Positions 21,760 to 34,726 of a stretch of DNA of 64,000 bases are shown here, one piece after another. A program made the position numbers and the translations under genes. The stretch's first letter is position 1; the number at the start of each line of letters is the position of its first letter. The stretch is from Cyanobacteria bacterium RM1_2_2 (GTDB taxonomy: Bacteria; Cyanobacteriota; Cyanobacteriia; Elainellales; Elainellaceae): the NCBI GenBank assembly GCA_012033495.1, contig JAAUQT010000003.1:1-64000 (forward strand), read 5' to 3'. The notes below the pieces were generated by a model that worked only from the letters and a program-made list of their open reading frames with translations, searched no databases and was not told the DNA's origin.

Positions 21760-23363
21760 TCAACTCGAACCCGCGCTATTCAGATTTTTCCAAATAAACA
21801 AGCTAGTAATACCAACAAAAGCACTGAAAGCGGCTTGAATTAGCTCAAGATTACTATCACTTGCAACAGAAATAAACCACCATATCATCACGCCAACAGA
21901 TGAACCGATCAAGCCAAACAAAAGCAGCTTTATTGGGTTCCTTGGGTTGGTGGGGTCTAAGCCTTGCGATATCCAGATGGCTAATCCATTGACGAAGCCG
22001 CCGACAAAACTAGCGAAAAGTTCTATCAATGAATCACTTCCAGGCTTTAAGGCAGCAATTCCTAAAGCAGCGACCCAACCGCCAAGAATGATGCTGATCG
22101 GCAACACAAAGTCTTTACCGACGGAAGCAGCAAGTTTCTGTTCTATCTTTGCTAGCAGTACCCTTGTATCTTTATAAGTAGGGTCAATGCTAACAATTTG
22201 CTCGAACTTTTCATATGCCTTTTCCCAGTTCCGCAAATTTAGGTAGTGCTGTCCTCGATCATATAAATCATTTAATTGTCTGCGTCTTTCGTCATCCCGC
22301 ATTCGCTTCTGCGCTTGCGGCAATAGATTGTCTAGATCGAGATAAGTTGAATCGATTGCCCCGATTTCTCCAGAGACGACATCAATCACTCGCTGCCACT
22401 GCCCATTGCGGTAGTAGCTCCGTGCCCGCTCATAGAGTTCAGCAATCTGCTTTTCTTTCTTTTTTAGTTCTTCCTGTAAGATACCGTTTGCTTCTGCTTC
22501 AGGAAGTCCCAAATCCTGTCGGATCTGCTCCAGTCGAATTTTCGCATTCTGGGATAAATTGCGATTAGCTGCAAACTTTCTAACTTGTTCACGGTATTGC
22601 TTCAAATTCAATTCTTTTTCGTAGGCTCGGTCGATATTGATCTGAATCTCAATTTGTTCATTCTGTGAAAGTTGGTTGGTTGAATTAACCCCGATCGGAC
22701 TGGAAACGATCGCTGGTTTCGGCTTTTGCTTTAATTGTGGCTTTAAATGTTCTGGAATTTTGACCCGTTCAACCGATTGTTCAACAATACCAACTACAGT
22801 AGCCATGCGTTCCGCCTCTGAAGCAACCGAGCGACGAGCCGTATTTCCAGACTCCGAAATGGTGAGATGAATTTGATTGCAGCCAAACCTATAAGCCTGT
22901 TCAATTGTCTTGCCATATCCAAGAGCTTGATAAAAGCCTTTAGAAAATGCAATGGCCGCACTATCCAAAATCTCCTGGCTCATACCGATCACGTAGTTAA
23001 TATGTTCCACAATGGCGTCTGCTTGGACCTCTGAATAGCAGGCATTCAGCAACACACATTCTACCTGCTCAGAAAACAGCCCAAAGAAATTCTTAAGCGC
23101 ATCTGTGGAAACCAATTGCTCTCGCCCAGACTCATCTTGCAGAACTAGACCCCTTGCGCCTGTCCCATGCCCACAGAAATGCACAACTTGCGGATTGTAC
23201 TTCAATAACAGCCCTTGCAACTCATCCGTCCGCGCCGCCAATCCAATTTCAACCTCAAACTGTTCCCGCTCTCGTGATCGTTCGATCATGCCCTGCAAAT
23301 CCTTAATTTCTTTCATGAGATTAAGGTCTTTCGTGGGTTAGATTCCAGAATCAGAATTTTCAT
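21760..23363 (-). CDS. Membrane-anchored CHAT-domain (caspase-like) protein with TPR-like region; frameshift near start
   Basis: CHAT is a caspase-fold protease domain used in bacterial cell-death and conflict systems. The catalytic His (VVHFCGHGTG) and Cys (VLLNACYSEV) are intact, followed by the FSKGFYQALGYG helix. After a charged coiled-coil/TPR-like region (YERARSYYRNGQW; YDRGQHYLNLRNWEKAYEKF) come about four hydrophobic helices, so the protein is membrane bound with CHAT in the cytoplasm. The track starts at 23316, but an upstream frame from ATG 23363 encodes the missing first CHAT strand (MKILILESNPRK) and joins if one base is restored in the T-run at 23329-23331. It is divergent from the FHA gene. 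Confidence 0.86.
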
Positions 23364-23933: not shown

Positions 23934-25676
23934 ATGCGTAAGCATTTCAGGTACCTGTTAGTAATGTTCGTGGCTCTATTACTGCCCCTATTTCAGATTT
24001 CTTGTTCTCAAATTCCGCAATCAACTTCAAATCAACCTAGCCCAAGGGATAAGCTTGCTACGGCTGCTAAACCTGCTGTTGTACGTGTTATCGCTGGTTG
24101 TATTGGCAACTATGAGTACAAGCCTACTGATGAATCTGAGCCGATTTACCGAGCGTTTGGCTATGGCATTTCAGGATCTGGATTTTTTATAAACTCAAAT
24201 GGGTATATTGCAACATATGCAATTAAAAATGAGTCGGATTGTAAGGAGCGGCTCTTTCAAAACTTGGTTTCACAGCTTAGAACAGAGTATTATGATTCCG
24301 AATATCCTGATCCAGACTCTAATTTGAGAAAGCAGTATCCCAATCAAGTTCTAAATTTAGATGAAAGTGAAATCAGGAAAAGAAGTACACTGCCAGACGG
24401 TAACTTTCAGTATATCAATTCCGTAATTCTGCCTCACCCAGATTCAAAAGATTATTCTTTTGAGGTCAAAGAGTCTGGTGGGCCATTGGAAGATGGCAAA
24501 GACGATGTTTCTATTATTAAAATTAATCTTGAAAAAGAGAATGCGCCTTCCCTCAGACTTGGAGACTCTGACAGAGTGCGCTTGGATGACGTGACTGTGA
24601 TTGGATATCCGGCAAATGATGCTGCTGCTGATAGTTACGAGAAGGTGCTCAATGATAAAGCAGTCTATGAAGCATCGGTTAGTGAAGGCAGAATCTCTAA
24701 TCCGAATAAAAAAACAAAAAGTAATTCTCCTGTCTTAGAGATTAATGTGTCTGCTAGCTACGGCAGTGCTGGTAGTCCGGTACTGAATGCTCAAGGCGAA
24801 GTAATTGGCATCATTGCTCCTACAAAAGCAGACCGGAATCCTTTTATCGAAGTACCTGGAGAAGACAAGGTGCGTGTCAGAGACAAAGGTATTCCTCTTG
24901 CCGTTCCTGCTAAAAAGATTCAGGAGTTTGTAGAAGCTAGTGGTACTTCTAATAAGCCAGGAGAAGTTGACGAATGGTATGGCAGAGGACTGAACCAATT
25001 CTGGCAGGGGGATTATGAAGGTGCAATCAAGAGGTTTGAAGTGGTTGAAGACCTCTTCCCAGAACACTCAGAAGTTGAGAGGCTGATTAGTGAGAGCAAT
25101 AAAAGCAAAGTCATTATTGGGATTCAACCAGCAACTCTCTTGTGGGGAGTACTTGGTACGGTGATTGCAGGATTGTTAGGATTAGTCTTCTTCCTCATGC
25201 GACGTAAGCCTCGTCCTGTCAGTAAAGTTTCAGCTTCTGCGGAACCTGAAAGAAGACCTCGCCCGCATATTACTGGATATCCTGCGGATAACGGTATAGG
25301 GCAACCGTGGGTTGAATTGGAAGGGCAAGGTCAGATTAAGAAGTTGCAGCTTAGTAAAGGTAGCCATCGGATTGGGCGTGATCCCGCTTGGTCTGACATA
25401 GAAATTCCGGCAAATTGGGAAGTGTTGTCGAGACATCATGCTCTGCTAAAGCGTGAGGACAACAGCTACCGTATCTTTGACGGAGATGGTAGGGTTCCTA
25501 GCCGCAATGGATTGTTTGTCGATAACTACACTCGTGTTGATGTGAACGAGGGCTATCTGCTGAAACCTGGTGATACGCTAATCATCGGTAAAGATCCCCA
25601 GGAACAGGTGCGGCTAACCTACTACAATCCAACTGCTAGCCAAACAACACCAGAGACGAAAGTAGCCAGATCTTAA
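23934..25676 (+). CDS. Secreted pseudo-trypsin with membrane span and cytoplasmic FHA domain
   Basis: A 580-residue protein in four parts. Signal or lipoprotein-like N-terminus (LLPLFQISC). Trypsin/HtrA-like domain at about residues 30-330 (GSGFFINSNGYIAT, DDVSIIKIN, SYGSAGSPVLNAQGEVIGI). One TPR-like helix pair (WYGRGLNQFWQGDYEGAIKRF). A membrane helix at about 400-420 followed by RRK, then a cytoplasmic FHA domain (HRIGRDPAWSDIEI, LSRHHALL, NGLFVDN). The His of the usual TNAHV motif is absent (ATYAIKN) and the nucleophile position reads Ala (GSAGSP), so it should be catalytically dead. FHA domains bind phosphothreonine. AGAGGA precedes the ATG at a good distance. It lies upstream of a Ser/Thr kinase on the same strand. 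Confidence 0.85.
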   Translation: MRKHFRYLLVMFVALLLPLFQISCSQIPQSTSNQPSPRDKLATAAKPAVVRVIAGCIGNYEYKPTDESEPIYRAFGYGISGSGFFINSNGYIATYAIKNESDCKERLFQNLVSQLRTEYYDSEYPDPDSNLRKQYPNQVLNLDESEIRKRSTLPDGNFQYINSVILPHPDSKDYSFEVKESGGPLEDGKDDVSIIKINLEKENAPSLRLGDSDRVRLDDVTVIGYPANDAAADSYEKVLNDKAVYEASVSEGRISNPNKKTKSNSPVLEINVSASYGSAGSPVLNAQGEVIGIIAPTKADRNPFIEVPGEDKVRVRDKGIPLAVPAKKIQEFVEASGTSNKPGEVDEWYGRGLNQFWQGDYEGAIKRFEVVEDLFPEHSEVERLISESNKSKVIIGIQPATLLWGVLGTVIAGLLGLVFFLMRRKPRPVSKVSASAEPERRPRPHITGYPADNGIGQPWVELEGQGQIKKLQLSKGSHRIGRDPAWSDIEIPANWEVLSRHHALLKREDNSYRIFDGDGRVPSRNGLFVDNYTRVDVNEGYLLKPGDTLIIGKDPQEQVRLTYYNPTASQTTPETKVARS

Positions 25677-25922
25677 TGCCGGAAAATTCAGTGAAGCTCA
25701 ATGCAATTTGATTGCAACCGTTTCAATGCATTGCTGGCACTCACCCAGAGGCAGGCTCATTGATCTACCTTCTATGATCTGCCTCCTGTGTGAGTAGCTT
25801 GGGCGAGCAGCCTATATGAGCGATAAGTGGCTTTGCAATTTCATGCTGTTTCAGTCAGGCTGAGAAACAGTATCCTAACTGTTATGGCAGGATGAGTGGT
25901 AAAGGCTCAGGAGAGTCAGGCA

Positions 25923-28213
25923 ATGCAGGCATTTGATGGCAAGCTAGTCGGCGGGCGCTATAAAGTCATAAACAGGCTTGGCGGGGGTGGTGGTGGTGAA
26001 ACCTACACTGCGGCTGATATGCACCGTCCGGGTCATCCCAAGTGTGTAGTCAAACGCCTAAAACCCGCTACGAATGATCCCAGTTTGTTACCGATTGCTA
26101 GAAATCTCTTTAACAGAGAAGCAGAAACATTAGAGCATTTAGGACACCATAACCAAATTCCTCGGCTGCTGGCTTACTTTGAAGAAGATGCAGAGTTTTA
26201 TCTAGTCCAAGATTTTATTGAAGGTCATCCGCTGAATGTAGAGTTGCCCGCAGGTCACTGCTGGTCAGAAACTAAAGTGATTCAATTGCTGCAAGATGTG
26301 CTGACTACGCTGGAGTTTGTGCACAGTCAAGGCGTCATTCACCGAGATGTCAAACCTGCAAACCTGATCCGACGTAATCAAGATAATAAGCTTGTCCTGA
26401 TTGACTTTGGTGCGGTTAAGCAAGTTCGAGGAGACACCCAGGCAATTACCCACAGTCGCATCATTAACCCAACTACAATTTCGATTGGCACAGAGGGCTA
26501 CATGCCGCCAGAGCAGTGGATGGGCAAGCCCTACTTGAGTAGTGATATCTATGCATTGGGCATGATCGGCATCCAAGCATTAACAGGCACCGATCAAATC
26601 CATTTGGCACAACTGCCGCGAGATTCAAGGCTTGAGGTAGTGTGGCAGCCTAAGACCCAAGTGAGTGACGAGCTAGTCGTTATTCTCAGTAAATGGTGCG
26701 TTACCACTTCATGCAGCGCTATCAGTCTGCCACGGAGGCATTAGAGGCACTTCAGGGCTGCATTAATGGGGTGATGAAATCCTCTAACCAGGAACAGGTT
26801 CATCCACAAATTGGCGATGCAGACAATTCCCAATCTACCTGGGTTATTCAATCTTCAGAACCAACTCTCAAACAGCAGCTTGAACCATTCGAGACTAAGG
26901 TTAGTTCAGCGAATAGAGCTGCTGCTCAGCAGCCCGTTGCGGAGATTCAATTGGCAGCAGATAGTAACCCTGTACCACAATTAGGGGAATGGGTGCGAGA
27001 AGCTGAGATAATCCCCGGAGAAAGAACGAGCAACGTAGAGACCACATCTTTACCTACGCACCTGCAAGCAGAGCTAATACCAAAGTCGGAATCAGAGATA
27101 CAAGCGACAAAAGTTAGCTTGATGACAGAGCCGCTACCACCCGAAACCAGCGCTGAGGTTCAGCTAGCAGAGGCAAAGGTTGCTCACCCAACTGAGCCAC
27201 AAATCCAATCTGCTAATGTAGATGGGCTACCAGAAACGAAAGTCAGTGCAGAAGCAGTGAAAGCTGAGCTACCAGAAACAAAATTCAGCCAACCCGAACG
27301 ATTGCAGCCACACACCGAACTTCCAGAAACAAAATATAGCCAGCCCGAACGTTCCCAGTCCGTTTCAGAAATACCAGAAACAAAATATAGTCAACATGAG
27401 CGATCGCATTCAGAAATACTAGAAACTAAGTACAGTCAGCCGGAGCGAGTACACTCATCTAACCTAGCCGCTAATTTAACCACGAACGTACCAGAAAACA
27501 TAGTAGAGACAAAATTCAGTCCAGATTCAACCCCAGTTGCTTCACCCCATGGAGTACAGTTCCCATCTCGCTTTCGGCAAAAACGCTGGTTGGCAGTAGG
27601 TTTGGGTACGGGCGCAGCAGTACTTGCAATCGTTGCTGCTTTGCTTGTGATCAAGCCAGGATCTGAAGTGGGGTTAGATAGTCCACCCGATAACCCACCA
27701 GAAACACCGCTGCCAGAAACACCACTGCCCGAGTTGAAGGGAGACTATACCCAACTTCAAAAATATTTAGAGGCAGGCAAATTGGAAGAAGCTGATCGAG
27801 AAACCTATGAAGTGATGCTGAAAGTTGCAGGAGAGATTTCAGAGAAACAGGGTTACTTTGCAATAAATGAATGGCAGAAGTTTTCTTGTGAAGACTTTAG
27901 AGAAATTGATCGCCTTTGGAGTAAAACGAGTGGAGGTAAGTTAGGTTTTAGTGCTCAGACAAGGATTTTGAATGAAGTCACTGATCCAACTAAAAGCCCA
28001 GAGGAGAATGGTTTTAAGTATCTAAATGAAATTGGTTGGCAAAAAGGGCAAAAAAGAGTCGTAGCTTTGGAAAAACCCACAGGTAGCAATCGATTTGTGT
28101 ATAAGACTGAACCAACTTTCGAGAATCCCCCGCCTGGTCATTTACCAGCCAAACTAATTTGGAGCAATCAGAAAGATGAACGATTTGCTATGGTTCGTAA
28201 ATGTGAGCTCTAA
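25923..28213 (+). CDS. Transmembrane Ser/Thr protein kinase with C-terminal GUN4 domain; frameshifted
   Basis: About 763 residues once one A is restored in the A-run at 26691-26693, which joins ...VVILSK to MVRYHFMQRYQSA. The kinase domain (about 10-275) has a Gly-rich loop, the VVKRLK lysine, HRDVKPANL and DFG motifs, so it should be active. The linker carries five or more repeats of the form PETKYSQPERS. A membrane helix at about 560-585 (WLAVGLGTGAAVLAIVAALLV) places the following GUN4 domain (YTQLQKYLEAGKLEEADRET; FSCEDFREIDRLW; GFSAQ) outside the cytoplasm. GUN4 binds tetrapyrroles in known proteins. I prefer ATG 25923, with GGAG upstream, to GTG 25896. Confidence 0.88.
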
Positions 28214-28423
28214 ATTCTACGATTTTTAGTTTTACTTAAACTAAAATTTCAACAATTCCTTGTAGAATTTTCGTAAGTGGCATTTAGTCTAGAGTAGACA
28301 GATTCAGCAAAGGTTTGCTTAATCAAAAAGAGTGTTTGTAGTGCAATGTGGCAGCTTACTTCAAGAGAGGTAAGCGTGGATTGAATAGCTGCAAGAAAAG
28401 TAACCTTCTAGGAATTAATTAAG

Positions 28424-29152
28424 ATGAAAAAGATCTACTTAGCCCTGCTCCTCAGTTTCCTTGGAGTTGTATCCCTGAATCCAGTATTGGCTGAAACTTC
28501 TCAAAATGGAAATCAGTCAGCACCTGAGGCAGAAACTCAGGTTACACCTGTACAACCCCAAGACAGCCAAGAACCGTCCGAGGCAGAAGGGGCAGATGTC
28601 AATGCACCGCCTTTGGGTGGAACAGTTCCAGACACAACAACGCCAACAGGAGAAACTGTCGTTGTTGAAGATTACAAGCAATATCCAGAATATAGCGAAT
28701 TGCAAGCCGCCTTGCAGCAACAGCCCCCCAACTGGCAGCTGGCTGACCAAAAGACTTATGAACTAATGCTGAGAATTGCAGGCGCTAACTCTCAGAGTCA
28801 AGGAGCTTTCGCTGTAGATGATTGGCAGCAATTTCCTTGTAATGCTTTACAGGATATTGACCAACTGTGGATGCAAGCTAGCTCTGGGCAGCAAGGTTTC
28901 AGCAGACAGTGGGACATCTTTCAATCTGCCAGGCCGAACCAGGAGTTGTACTATTACCGAATCGGTTGGAAAGAATTATCTGGAGCTTGGAAAGTAGCGT
29001 GGAGAATTCGAGATAATAATCTGGAATATATTCAGAATGCTTCTCCTAACTTTACAGATCCTCCAGCCGGCCATTTACCCGCAGGACTAGAGTGGCAAGA
29101 TGGCAAAGATTACCGATTTCAAGCGGTCGATCGATGTGGTTTGAATCAATAA
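28424..29152 (+). CDS. Secreted GUN4-domain protein
   Basis: A 242-residue exported protein. A clear Sec signal peptide (MKKIYLALLLSFLGVVSLNPVLA) is followed by an acidic/Pro-rich spacer to about residue 90. The rest is a GUN4-like domain aligning with that of the preceding kinase (YSELQAALQQQPPNWQLADQKT; FPCNALQDIDQLW; QGFSRQ; PPAGHLPAGLEW). Both proteins share a Cys in the F-x-C segment and another near the C-terminus, which could pair outside the cytoplasm. Location outside is unlike the Mg-chelatase regulator Gun4. It lies 210 bp after the kinase on the same strand and may supply a soluble ligand-binding partner (inference). Confidence 0.83.
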   Translation: MKKIYLALLLSFLGVVSLNPVLAETSQNGNQSAPEAETQVTPVQPQDSQEPSEAEGADVNAPPLGGTVPDTTTPTGETVVVEDYKQYPEYSELQAALQQQPPNWQLADQKTYELMLRIAGANSQSQGAFAVDDWQQFPCNALQDIDQLWMQASSGQQGFSRQWDIFQSARPNQELYYYRIGWKELSGAWKVAWRIRDNNLEYIQNASPNFTDPPAGHLPAGLEWQDGKDYRFQAVDRCGLNQ

Positions 29153-29245: not shown

Positions 29246-30133
29246 ATGAAAGTATCAAAGTTTTGTTTATCGATGTTGCTGTTCATCTTGGGATATTGTT
29301 GCCTTTCTGTAACCTCAGCCAAAGCAGCAGAAACGGTAGTAACAGAAATACCTCAAATTGCCCAAAATGAACCTGACTCCGTTCAAACTCCGGTTCAAGA
29401 TGCCGAACTTCTGGATAGTCCATCTCTGATTTTAGAGACTACTCCAAGTGAACAATCTGACCTCGTTTTGGAAGAAGGTCCAGGCGTTCAAGATGATTTA
29501 ACGGTTGGAAGCCCCAGTGAAAAGAATCCCGACTTCTCAGGAGTGATCGCGACGCCTGCACCCCCACTAGGAGATGTGACGGAGGATGTAATTGTCTACA
29601 CTCCAGTAGAAGCACCTACTGAAGTAGTTGTCTACACCCCGGTAGAAGCACCCGAACCTGAAGCTGTCATCATTGCAACTGCTCTTCCTGTTGACGCTCC
29701 TCCTGCACTGACTCCGGTGTCCACTAAGCAAGTGGCAATTGAGAACGTTACTTTCCTCTGCGGCGAAGATGGCAATGATCCGGCAACGGTTGCAAAAAAT
29801 AAAGACGAAGAGGAATTTTTCGTCATTGTTTGGAAGTCTGGCAACTTTGAAACTGCCGGATACGACGATCAAACTCGCTGTAAGCAAGTCTCTGCTCGGT
29901 TTGAAGAATATAACAAAGGTAAACTGCTGACTTACCTTGCAACAGGCAAGCTAAACGGACAGCCAGTAATTTGCCTCACGAGCAAAGCAGATGGAAGTTG
30001 CGGAGACGAAAGTATTTCATTACATCAAGGATTGCTGTTTACGCTCAAACCTAATGAGAATTCTGATCAAACCCTGGAGGAGTTGGTTGCTGTCATTGAT
30101 GGTAGGTCAGGGCAGAAGAGGCTGGAACAATAA
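29246..30133 (+). CDS. Secreted COP23-domain protein
   Basis: A 295-residue exported protein. It has a Sec signal peptide (cleavage near SAKA-AE) and an acidic, Pro/Val-rich spacer with a VVYTPVEAP-type repeat. The C-terminal COP23-like domain of about 125 residues has three invariant-looking cysteines (FLCGEDG, TRCKQVSARF, PVICLT) and the LLFTLKPNE end. COP23 was named from a circadian-oscillating membrane-associated protein of cyanobacteria; its biochemical role is unknown. The spacer style resembles that of the preceding secreted GUN4 protein. It is the third same-strand gene after the kinase. Confidence 0.8.
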   Translation: MKVSKFCLSMLLFILGYCCLSVTSAKAAETVVTEIPQIAQNEPDSVQTPVQDAELLDSPSLILETTPSEQSDLVLEEGPGVQDDLTVGSPSEKNPDFSGVIATPAPPLGDVTEDVIVYTPVEAPTEVVVYTPVEAPEPEAVIIATALPVDAPPALTPVSTKQVAIENVTFLCGEDGNDPATVAKNKDEEEFFVIVWKSGNFETAGYDDQTRCKQVSARFEEYNKGKLLTYLATGKLNGQPVICLTSKADGSCGDESISLHQGLLFTLKPNENSDQTLEELVAVIDGRSGQKRLEQ

Positions 30134-30297: not shown

Positions 30298-31886
30298 ATG
30301 GTTTACGCAGTTGATTTTGGCACAAGCAACACAGTTGTCGTTCGGTGGAATTCCGTTACGCAAGCTCCTGAGACATTGACTCTCCCTGGTTTGTCGCAAA
30401 AGTTGGGCAACAATCCACCGCTGATTCCGAGTTTAGTATATGTAGAAGACGCAACGCGAGGGGAAATTGTGGCAGGGCAGGCAGTCCGCGATCGAGGATT
30501 GGATCTCAGCAGCAATCCTCGCTTTTTCGCAATTTTAAGCGCGGCATCAGTGCAGAAATTCAAGGATTTTTGCCGGAGTTAGACGGGCGCGTGGTCAACT
30601 TCGAGCAAGCCGGACAGTGGTTTTTGACAACTTTGCTCAGTCAGCTTCAGGTGATTGAACCAGACATTGATTCACTGGTGTTTACAGTTCCGGTTGATAG
30701 TTTTGAAGCCTATCGCCTCTGGCTGACGCAGGTTTGCTACTCACTTAATATCAATGAAGTTCGATTGCTCGACGAGCCAACGGCAGCCGCACTCGGCTAT
30801 GGCTTGACCAATCAGGGAACGCTGCTGGTAGTGGACTTTGGCGGCGGCACGTTGGATTTATCCGTGGTGCGGTTGGAAGGCGGACGGCAAGCTCAGTCAA
30901 AGCCAGTCGGTTTTTTGCTCAAATGGGGGCAGCGTGTTCTAGAAGAATCGGCTCAGCGACCCAAATTAGCGCGGGTGCTAGCGAAAGCTGGACAGAACTT
31001 GGGCGGTGCGGATATTGACGGTTGGCTAGTCGATCACTTTGCTGATCAAGGTTTAACCGCGTCTCCATTAACGTTACGGCTTGCAGAACGACTTAAAATT
31101 CAGCTTTCGCAGCAGCCAGAAGCCGCTGAAGTTTATTTCAATGATGAGACGTTAGAGAGTTATGACCTCAAGCTGGATCGGTCTCAATTCGAGCAGGTGT
31201 TGCAGCAGCACCAGTTTTTCGATCGGCTTGATGCCACCCTAACGCAAGTGTTGCAGCAATCCCAGCGGCAAGGACTCACCCCCGATGACATTGAAGCTGT
31301 CCTGCTGGTCGGTGGAACTGCCCAAATTCCGGCGGTCAAAGCCTGGATCGAGCGATACTTCCCGGTAGAAAAAATTCGGGCAGAGAAACCCTTTGAAGCA
31401 ATTGCTCAAGGCGCACTCCAACTCAATCAAGGCATCGAGATTAAAGATTTTCTCTATCACAGCTACGGAATTCGCTATTGGGATCGACGCAATAACTGCC
31501 ACAACTGGCATCCCCTGATTCAGCAAGGGCAACCTTACCCGATGCCAGAACCCGTCGAACTGCTGCTCGGAGCCTCTATGGAAAATCAGCCTAGCATCGA
31601 GTTGATTATTGGCGAAATCGGCACTGAAACCAGCAGCACGGAGGTTTATTTTGATGGCGATCGGCTGGTGACTCGCAGTTTAGCTGGCAGTCAGTCCGTG
31701 AAACCGCTGAATGATCAGGGCAATGCCAAAACCATCGCTCAGCTTGATCCCCCCGGATATCCGGGCAGCGATCGGGTCAAGATTTTGTTTCGAGTCGATG
31801 AAGCGCGGTTTTTGCGAATTACCGTAGAAGATCGGCTCACCCTGCGAACGTTGATGGAAGATCGCCCGGTGGTGCAGTTGAGCTAG
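30298..31886 (+). CDS. Hsp70-like ATPase, frameshifted
   Basis: An actin-fold/Hsp70-family protein of about 529 residues after restoring one T in the run at 30523-30527; the corrected join reads NPRFFRNFKRGISAEIQGFLPELDG. Phosphate-1 (VYAVDFGTSNT), phosphate-2 (LLVVDFGGGTLDLS) and adenosine (VLLVGGTAQIPAVK) motifs are present. The substrate-binding part is short (about 120 residues) and lacks the helical lid of DnaK, so this is one of the stand-alone Hsp70-like proteins of cyanobacteria. It lies 164 bp after the COP23 gene on the same strand. Its stop codon is the first three bases of a family B repeat. Confidence 0.87.
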
Positions 31887-33103: not shown

Positions 33104-34726
33104 ATGAGCTACTGCGTGAATCCAGCCTGTTCTAATCCTGAAAACTTGGCCCAAGCTGACTACTGTCAGACTTGCGGTTCTAAGCTGTTGTTGCGCGATC
33201 GGTATCGGGTGCTGCAAGCGCTTGGGCAAGGCGGCTTTGGGGCTACTTTCCTTGCTAAGGATGAAGCGTTACCCGGCAGTCCCTATTGCGTTATCAAACA
33301 ACTGCGTCCGGCGGCCTCTTCGCCTCATGTCATGCAGATGGCGCGGGACTTGTTTGAGCGGGAGGCTAACACCCTCGGCAAGGTAGGAAATCATCCCCAA
33401 GTGCCCCGTCTGCTGGATTATTTTGAGGTCAATAACGAGTTTTATCTAGTACAGGAATATATCAGCGGCTCGACGCTGCAACAGGAAGTGAAGCGATCTG
33501 GACCGTTTAGCGAAGCGGGAGTCAAGCAGTTTTTGAGTGAAGTGCTGCCGATGCTGCAATACATTCACAATCAGCAGGTGATTCACCGAGATATTAAACC
33601 CGCAAACTTAATTCGTCGATTGCAAGATCGCAAGCTGGTTTTGATCGATTTTGGTGCGGTTAAAGATCAGGTCAATCCAATGCGAGCAGGAGCTTCTGAG
33701 CAAACCGCTCTCACCCAATATGCAATTGGCACACCTGGCTATGCCCCGCCTGAACAAATGGCGATGCGCCCCGTTTATGCCAGCGACATCTATGCGTTGG
33801 GAGTAACGTGCCTTTATCTATTGACCGGCAGATCGCCGAAAGACATGGACTATGACCCTGCGACAGGTGAAATCCTCTGGCGCGAGCAGGTGCACATCAG
33901 CGATCACTTCACCGATGTGCTGAAAAAAATGCTGGAAGTCTCGGTGCGCCATCGTTACCAAAATGCTACAGAAGTGCTGCGAGCGCTCGACCTTGAACCT
34001 TATCTTGATAGTTTGGCCAGAGGCATGGTGAGTCAACCCACCCGCTCGCCAGGGAACCGTCCGCAACTTTCTCACTCAGGAGAATTGGGCGACGCCACCA
34101 GCCCTTCTTCTCCAACGGCGCGGATGGCAGCGGCGATTCGAGCACGTCAGGCTGCGAAGTCAATCTCTGGCCCGCTCAATGCCGATATGACTGCCCTCCA
34201 GACAGGTGTTTCGCGTCGGCGTGCTACGGTGCAAGAAGCCTCATCCCTGACCACGATTCACTCGCGCGGCATGGCGAGTAATCCCAGCGGTGCTCCTAGA
34301 CTTTCTGCTGAAGAGTTGCTGTCTGCTTATGCCAAAGGCAAGCGAGATTTTACGAACCACGATTTGAGTGCGCTGAACTTGACTAAAGCAGATTTGTCAG
34401 GGGCAAACTTCCATCAGGCAAAGCTGCATAAAATTAATCTGCAAGGGGCAAATTTACTCAACGCTGATTTTGGTCGAGCAAATTTGAGCCAGTCTTGCCT
34501 GAAGAATGCTAGGCTCGCTCGCGCTTACTTGAACCATGCCGATTTAGCGGGAGCCGATTTGCGGGGCGCAGACCTCAGCTATGCCTATATGAGCCATACC
34601 AATCTGCGAGGCGCAAACCTTTGTGGGGTTGATTTAACAGGCGCGAAAGTGTCGGACGAGCAGTTAGCCATGGCTCGCACCAATTGGGCTACGGTTCATC
34701 CGAGCGGCAAACGTGGACTTTGGTAG
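33104..34726 (+). CDS. spkB: Ser/Thr protein kinase with N-terminal Cys motif and C-terminal pentapeptide repeats (SpkB-like)
   Basis: A 540-residue cytoplasmic kinase. The N-terminal zinc-ribbon-like motif (CVNPACSNPENL...YCQTCGSK) is followed by the kinase domain at about residues 30-300, with GQGGFGATFLA, VIKQLRP, HRDIKPANLI and DFGAV all intact. A Ser-rich linker follows, then eight or so pentapeptide repeats of the A(N/D)LxX type (LTKADLSGANFHQAKL onward). This matches Synechocystis SpkB, whose Cys motif is needed for autophosphorylation and which is linked to oxidative stress. The symbol is assigned on architecture alone. The GCATG start at 33104 is the first Met before the Cys motif. 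Confidence 0.85.
   Translation: MSYCVNPACSNPENLAQADYCQTCGSKLLLRDRYRVLQALGQGGFGATFLAKDEALPGSPYCVIKQLRPAASSPHVMQMARDLFEREANTLGKVGNHPQVPRLLDYFEVNNEFYLVQEYISGSTLQQEVKRSGPFSEAGVKQFLSEVLPMLQYIHNQQVIHRDIKPANLIRRLQDRKLVLIDFGAVKDQVNPMRAGASEQTALTQYAIGTPGYAPPEQMAMRPVYASDIYALGVTCLYLLTGRSPKDMDYDPATGEILWREQVHISDHFTDVLKKMLEVSVRHRYQNATEVLRALDLEPYLDSLARGMVSQPTRSPGNRPQLSHSGELGDATSPSSPTARMAAAIRARQAAKSISGPLNADMTALQTGVSRRRATVQEASSLTTIHSRGMASNPSGAPRLSAEELLSAYAKGKRDFTNHDLSALNLTKADLSGANFHQAKLHKINLQGANLLNADFGRANLSQSCLKNARLARAYLNHADLAGADLRGADLSYAYMSHTNLRGANLCGVDLTGAKVSDEQLAMARTNWATVHPSGKRGLW

Follow-up and report, generated by a model that had tools for sequence, protein, structure and literature searches.

What would a cyanobacterium do with GUN4, commonly treated as an intracellular protein of the chlorophyll pathway, outside its cytoplasm? 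This question is raised by a locus in Cyanobacteria bacterium RM1_2_2, where a gene for a Ser/Thr kinase with a membrane helix and a C-terminal GUN4 domain is followed by a gene for a GUN4 protein with a signal peptide. We analyzed the 64,000-nucleotide stretch that carries this GUN4 pair (contig JAAUQT010000003.1, positions 1 to 64,000; hereafter the window), which belongs to a cyanobacterial draft genome of 5.54 Mb in 335 contigs. The genome encodes eight GUN4 domains, two of them in the window and one, at C216, being that of Mg-chelatase Gun4. According to the original prediction, made from the DNA letters, both domains of the pair face outward and serve sensing rather than chlorophyll synthesis. 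As judged from its sequence, the kinase is a receptor kinase with an unusual ectodomain, drawn from a clade of GUN4 paralogs that fails the tests for Mg-chelatase Gun4. Such use of GUN4 outside the cytoplasm would separate the GUN4 fold from Mg-chelatase.

Predicted location of the GUN4 pair

Both domains are recognized by Pfam (PF05419, curated cut-off of 29.2 bits), with 89 bits for the kinase copy (27740..28210, E 3.5e-25) and 86 bits for the secreted copy (28685..29149, E 4.8e-24); these and all other features are on the + strand unless stated. Their AlphaFold2 models (mean pLDDT of 90 and 96, respectively) have GUN4 structures as their sole PDB matches at E ≤ 0.001, with a Foldseek probability of 1.0 that includes complexes with porphyrin and phycocyanobilin. 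The kinase domain (25896..26744), which displays HRDVKPAN and DFG motifs and scores 115 bits against Pfam Pkinase, ends early at a frame break, and the remainder of the gene (26693..28213) encodes, in a shifted frame, the kinase tail, a long linker, a transmembrane (TM) helix, and GUN4. In sequence, this is the composition of a receptor kinase, with a single TM helix between a kinase domain and a GUN4 ectodomain. The break lies in an A-run near 26690 (region 26680-26720), and the orthologous kinase gene of Drouetiella hepatica (L068) and those of all other relatives inspected are single unbroken frames.

Only one hydrophobic segment (27596..27652, with a 19-residue core) separates the kinase from GUN4. 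Since this helix is preceded by the basic stretch RFRQKR and followed by an acidic/proline side, the kinase is predicted to lie inside and GUN4 outside. The same orientation follows from the need of the kinase for ATP, which would place it in the cytoplasm and hence, with a single helix, GUN4 across the membrane. As for the second GUN4 protein, its open reading frame (28424-29152) has the N terminus MKKIYLALLLSFLGVVSLNPVLA/ETS, which by eye is a classical Sec signal peptide (28424..28492) consisting of a hydrophobic segment and a V-x-A cleavage site (V-L-A / E).

We compared 141 GUN4 domains from the source genome, its family, and its class. Of these, 41 are related to the window pair, 30 are from Mg-chelatase Gun4, and the remaining 70 are from other paralogs. 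A helix or signal peptide was called directly before GUN4 in 40 of the 41 relatives, in 3/70 other paralogs, and in 0/30 Mg-chelatase Gun4. The 41st relative has a visible signal peptide falling just below the threshold. Lysine and arginine are in excess on the N side of the helix in 33 of the 40 relatives, and the reverse was seen in none. The two-domain arrangement originally proposed is thus borne out by Pfam, models, and sequence, and the extracytoplasmic location stands as a prediction. Our confidence in these domains and in their predicted topology is high, the compartment faced by GUN4 being predicted as periplasm or thylakoid lumen.

A tree built from 105 domains shows the extracytoplasmic copies (i.e., the window pair and its relatives) as one side of a 100/100 branch, and Mg-chelatase Gun4 orthologs and extracytoplasmic copies are found on separate sides of 100/100 branches. 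When 390 genomes of the class were scanned with an extracytoplasmic profile, 43 places in 37 genomes scored at least 118 bits, 19 of which had served to build the profile, and all other GUN4 domains scored 103.5 bits or less. Since the split is clear in both tree and scan, export appears to have arisen once during the evolution of the GUN4 family, within this sample. A search with a five-row alignment provided an independent hold-out set of extracytoplasmic copies, and the secreted GUN4 alone, as a query against named genomes, retrieved no relatives. Another GUN4 protein of the source genome (L008, G000:C124:18930-19283), with an apparent N-terminal membrane/lipoprotein-like signal, is outside the clade on a long branch. 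Within the clade, a TM-anchored GUN4 in an Oscillatoriaceae metagenome-assembled genome directly follows a caspase-like gene (L233 5722-8459).

Conserved residues and candidate ligands

The asparagine of the LxNxLR motif in GUN4 is essential for bilin binding, and paralogs are reported to be without this motif (Rockwell and Lagarias, PMC10156173). We found LxNxLR in 30/30 Gun4 orthologs and in 0/41 extracytoplasmic copies, and bilin binding by the known mode is therefore unlikely in the latter, to judge from their sequences. The PxGHLP stretch that precedes the motif position is kept, as is the GFS-Q core, and the model of secreted GUN4 has a TM-score of 0.74 to ligand-bound Synechocystis GUN4 and of 0.66 to the apo form. 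Of one outcome originally named as a refutation (loss of all pocket residues and no ligand binding), half is observed, LxNxLR being gone from every extracytoplasmic copy; the GUN4 fold and PxGHLP are retained. The ligand may be a porphyrin, heme, another small molecule, or a protein, and our confidence in a tetrapyrrole is low. For this ligand question, the extracytoplasmic clade offers a defined system of small soluble proteins.

The two copies also share two cysteines, which had been seen as compatible with a disulfide outside the cell membrane. They are indeed in equivalent places, the codons at 27887 and 28202 in the kinase copy aligning with those at 28838 and 29135 in the secreted copy. 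These residues are numbered Cys50/Cys155 in the kinase copy and Cys52/Cys151 in the model of secreted GUN4. The pair is invariant in the 19 members of our alignment A1 and is present in 41/41 extracytoplasmic copies and in 9/9 copies of the hold-out set from other genomes. It does not, however, point to the outside, since 46 of the 70 other paralogs, nearly all predicted to be cytoplasmic, carry it as well, among them GUN4 domains linked to soluble kinases and others linked to NACHT, TIR, or caspase. With 0/30 Mg-chelatase Gun4 having it, the cysteine pair is, in these sequences, a mark of the paralog side of the GUN4 family and not of location. Once exported, the two cysteines could form a disulfide, with which their invariance is compatible but of which it is no proof. 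Joint loss of the two cysteines gave a raw-count Fisher p of 0.00015, with only three independent tree contrasts and hence underpowered. A greater frequency of the pair outside has a Fisher p of 3e-7, but as this value derives from a single clade, it was given no evidential weight.

A conserved cassette around the GUN4 pair

Does the pair come with conserved neighbors? A gene for a kinase-TM-GUN4 protein and one for a secreted GUN4 are found together at eight loci: in the window (G000), Drouetiella hepatica (G005), G182, G283, G270, G289, and two Symploca assemblies, SIO3C6 and SIO2E9 (L227 and L226). At all eight, the next gene after the pair encodes a secreted COP23-family protein (29246..30133 in the window, Pfam COP23 103 bits), of which the window genome has three in total. 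At five of the eight, the gene directly before the kinase encodes a protein that runs from a signal sequence through a trypsin-like domain and a TM helix to an FHA domain (23934..25676 in the window, Pfam Trypsin_2 60 bits, FHA 44 bits), hereafter trypsin-TM-FHA. Its FHA domain is predicted to be cytoplasmic, on the same side of the membrane as the kinase. A TNAHVV-type motif is kept in the trypsin domains of G182, G283, Symploca, and most others; in the window the catalytic His is replaced and the Ser kept, a His loss that is common to Drouetiella. With its His lost, the trypsin-like domain of the window may therefore bind rather than cut.

Each of the five pair loci with trypsin-TM-FHA has an adjoining gene that encodes an effector-like head followed by several C-terminal TM helices. 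In the window this head is of CHAT-TPR and in Drouetiella of caspase-TPR composition, Symploca has a caspase-type relative, and G182 and G283 have EAD9 and, at the opposite end of the cassette, a further TIR-EAD9 gene. In the window, this gene (21760..23316, − strand) is divergent from the operon and encodes a CHAT protease-like domain (Pfam CHAT 38 bits) that keeps its His (HFCGHG) and Cys (LLNACYS), a TPR region (TPR_2), and a C-terminal multi-TM module. From this composition, we regard its product as a candidate effector. Its TPR-TM part matches that of the caspase-TPR-TM protein at the same position in Drouetiella (30% over 369 residues). Among the relatives, EAD9 was found in G182 and G283 and as a weak match in G028, with none found in the window's own genes. 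In two genomes, TIR-EAD9 and EAD9-multi-TM genes flank a trypsin-FHA/kinase-GUN4/GUN4/COP23 operon (L069 5599-6342 and 12931-13716; L072 4594-5418 and 11211-11987), which connects the operon with conflict genes of the EAD type.

The juxtamembrane linker of the window kinase (26891..27520) has seven ETK[VFY]S motifs and a 51-bp tandem unit at 27270-27395. The Drouetiella kinase has four of these motifs and the Symploca kinases have one apiece, and there are zero in the other relatives examined. The motifs might serve the FHA protein as phospho-Thr docking sites, and a general FHA docking code is kept as speculation given this narrow distribution.

A search with trypsin-TM-FHA showed that it is directly followed by a Ser/Thr kinase without GUN4 in seven more genomes (G032, G033, G200, G014, G071, G007, and G028). 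The C-terminal ectodomains of these kinases have no confident Pfam name, several having a helical-repeat look, and the secreted proteins encoded after them at some loci are of PPC, COP23-PPC, or WD40 types. Five of the seven have a neighboring gene of the CHAT, caspase, or TIR type, with TM helices encoded within or beside it. The same is true of G055, although its trypsin-TM-FHA gene is not followed by a kinase; the G033 locus stops at a contig edge, and G071 has no neighboring effector-like gene. A multi-TM CHAT, caspase, TIR, or EAD9 protein is thus encoded beside trypsin-TM-FHA at 11 loci (G000, G005, SIO3C6, G032, G007, G028, G014, G200, G055, G182, and G283), in the form of CHAT-EAD9 plus a 3-TM frame in G028. 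Since trypsin-TM-FHA and kinase recur with non-GUN4 ectodomains, GUN4 would occupy a sensor slot, and by their gene content, these loci appear to represent a wider cassette family. The TM modules are alike across differing heads, e.g., between G007 CHAT and G200 TIR (175 residues, E 6e-11), a likeness that is suggestive only, as it comes from a small set of hydrophobic sequences compared with filters off. In L207 (7570-9234 and 9730-10737), L208 (1194-5147), and L210 (1970-5189), trypsin-TM-FHA is seen with a non-GUN4 receptor kinase downstream and, in divergent orientation, a gene for TIR, caspase, or CHAT with C-terminal TM helices.

A possible receptor-kinase system and its alternatives

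PknB-type receptor kinases have a PASTA ectodomain and FHA partners. The cassette is similar in that a one-TM Ser/Thr kinase with an ectodomain is encoded next door to an FHA protein, but its ectodomain is GUN4 or helical-repeat rather than PASTA, and its FHA protein spans the membrane with a trypsin-like domain outside. Because of this gene order and these domains, we infer a receptor pattern, and our judgment tips, by a little, toward a transmembrane receptor-kinase system with GUN4 as sensor, FHA as relay, and CHAT as output. For the sensor role of the GUN4 pair, our confidence is moderate.

Such a system might work as follows. With the kinase in the cytoplasm, its GUN4 domain and the secreted GUN4 would face the periplasm or thylakoid lumen, where secreted COP23 would probably act as a partner. 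Kinase activity would change when the GUN4 ectodomain binds a ligand or secreted GUN4, the latter being a co-receptor or ligand carrier. The stimulated kinase would phosphorylate itself or a partner, on which the FHA domain of trypsin-TM-FHA would dock, and the CHAT protein, which is bound to the membrane and encoded divergently, would then receive the signal and act as the output. In its general form, the cassette would release or activate a membrane-anchored protease or NAD-consuming enzyme, with a constant kinase and a constant FHA membrane partner, and an exchangeable ectodomain with a matching secreted partner, GUN4 being one of several. The gene neighborhood is suggestive of a link to cell death or defense, and conserved neighbors such as the FHA relay and CHAT, caspase, or TIR proteins would tie these receptors to such processes in cyanobacteria. 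A more far-reaching version, which we consider speculative and rather doubtful, is a modular membrane surveillance cassette that combines a receptor kinase of swappable ectodomain, a trypsin-TM-FHA relay, and a membrane-anchored CHAT, caspase, or TIR executioner. In it, the exported GUN4 pair would respond to a cue in the periplasm or outside the cell, such as a tetrapyrrole set free from damaged cells, and so bring about cell death or phage defense.

Several observations weigh against a receptor-kinase system of this kind. Trypsin-TM-FHA is missing from three of the eight pair loci, and most members of the extracytoplasmic clade, all in one family (f24), have a kinase-GUN4 gene without secreted partner, COP23, or trypsin-TM-FHA. 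Conversely, no kinase or effector gene adjoins trypsin-TM-FHA at five further loci, which all belong to family f16. Adjacency of genes is no proof of a pathway, no ligand is on record, and the sole bilin motif that has been tested is absent from the extracytoplasmic copies. Finally, with a broken kinase frame and a trypsin-like domain lacking its His, the system may be in decay in this genome, or the assembly may be in error.

How do other explanations fare? That the pair are ordinary Gun4 co-factors of Mg-chelatase has a negligible probability: the Pfam family name speaks for it, but the source genome has its own Gun4 ortholog (C216, 223 bits) with an LSNQLR motif, and the pair is predicted to be exported, falls in a separate clade, and has no LxNxLR. 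Possible, if doubtful, is that the GUN4 ectodomains are protein-protein modules, dimerization being controlled through pairing of the secreted copy with that of the kinase (and with COP23), with no tetrapyrrole involved. Consistent with this, the two copies are encoded adjacently at eight loci and are mutually closest at some (e.g., L072), but the fold is kept, including PxGHLP and the GFS-Q core, the secreted model is nearer to the porphyrin- or bilin-bound form than to the apo form, and porphyrin binding involves residues besides the LxNxLR motif. We think it unlikely that the pair binds or carries tetrapyrroles outside (for heme, porphyrin, or bilin scavenging, or for photoprotection) with the kinase only reporting their level. 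The GUN4 fold, matched to porphyrin and phycocyanobilin complexes, would suit this role; the absent bilin motif does not, and no tetrapyrrole transport or synthesis gene was recognized beside the pair loci inspected.

The remaining alternative is that the locus is decaying and the system no longer works in the window strain. An HSP70/DnaK-like gene (30298..31886) is split into two frames at 30560-30590, much as the kinase gene is, which makes two broken genes within 4 kb, and the trypsin His is lost. However, no damage is seen in either GUN4 domain, in the COP23 domain, or at the His and Cys of CHAT, Drouetiella has the same His loss yet an intact kinase, and a break at an A-run is a common sequence error in a draft of 335 contigs. 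The frame breaks may thus be sequence error or decay, and we consider a defunct system improbable.

A receptor-kinase system with exported GUN4 would differ in several respects from the closest systems described. Kinase-GUN4 fusions have been known in cyanobacteria since 2005, e.g., alr4949 of Nostoc PCC 7120 (PMC1262709, PMC2176072). Cytoplasmic kinase-GUN4 proteins likewise have kinase and then GUN4 in one polypeptide, but soluble examples (L003 and L086) have no TM helix before GUN4 and belong to other clades, whereas the window GUN4 is predicted outside and is paired with secreted GUN4 and COP23. Mg-chelatase Gun4 (Synechocystis sll0558; PDB 1Y6I, 4XKC, and 7E2T) has the fold and PxGHLP region in common with the window pair, which differs by its lack of LxNxLR, its cysteine pair, its predicted export, its clade, and its gene context. 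GUN4 in kinases, caspases, trypsins, and TIR proteins has been read as an intracellular tetrapyrrole sensor of conflict systems (Kaur et al. 2020, PMC7159879). The cassettes resemble these systems in linking GUN4 to kinase, TIR, caspase, or trypsin, and those of G182 and G283 carry EAD9 and TIR-EAD9; here, in contrast to a sensor inside effector proteins, GUN4 would serve as a receptor domain outside the cytoplasm, and we recognized no VMAP/MoxR/vWA core. A sensing rather than chlorophyll-related role, as first proposed, is supported by the separate clade, the lost bilin motif, and the operon with kinase and FHA genes. Neither the cassette nor GUN4 domains outside the cytoplasm were found described in the open-license papers searched, and none of the papers mentioning both GUN4 and periplasm is on such a topic by title. 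In PADLOC, the kinase and each of the two GUN4 domains matched PD-T4-6, but as these are broad kinase-family models, we did not accept the matches as a defense call. As a lead only, a GUN4-kinase gene is among several mutated genes of a phage-resistant substrain (PMC10811720).

Three observations concern the surroundings of the pair. The HSP70-like gene does not adjoin the GUN4 pair in relatives and is a candidate operon member at most. A second Ser/Thr kinase gene, with pentapeptide repeats, is found at 33104-34726, 5 kb downstream of the pair, and is apparently outside the cassette in relatives. In G289, the GUN4 pair lies amid genes resembling those for phage-tail or contractile-injection-system proteins (L070 2815-5343 and 9668-14001).
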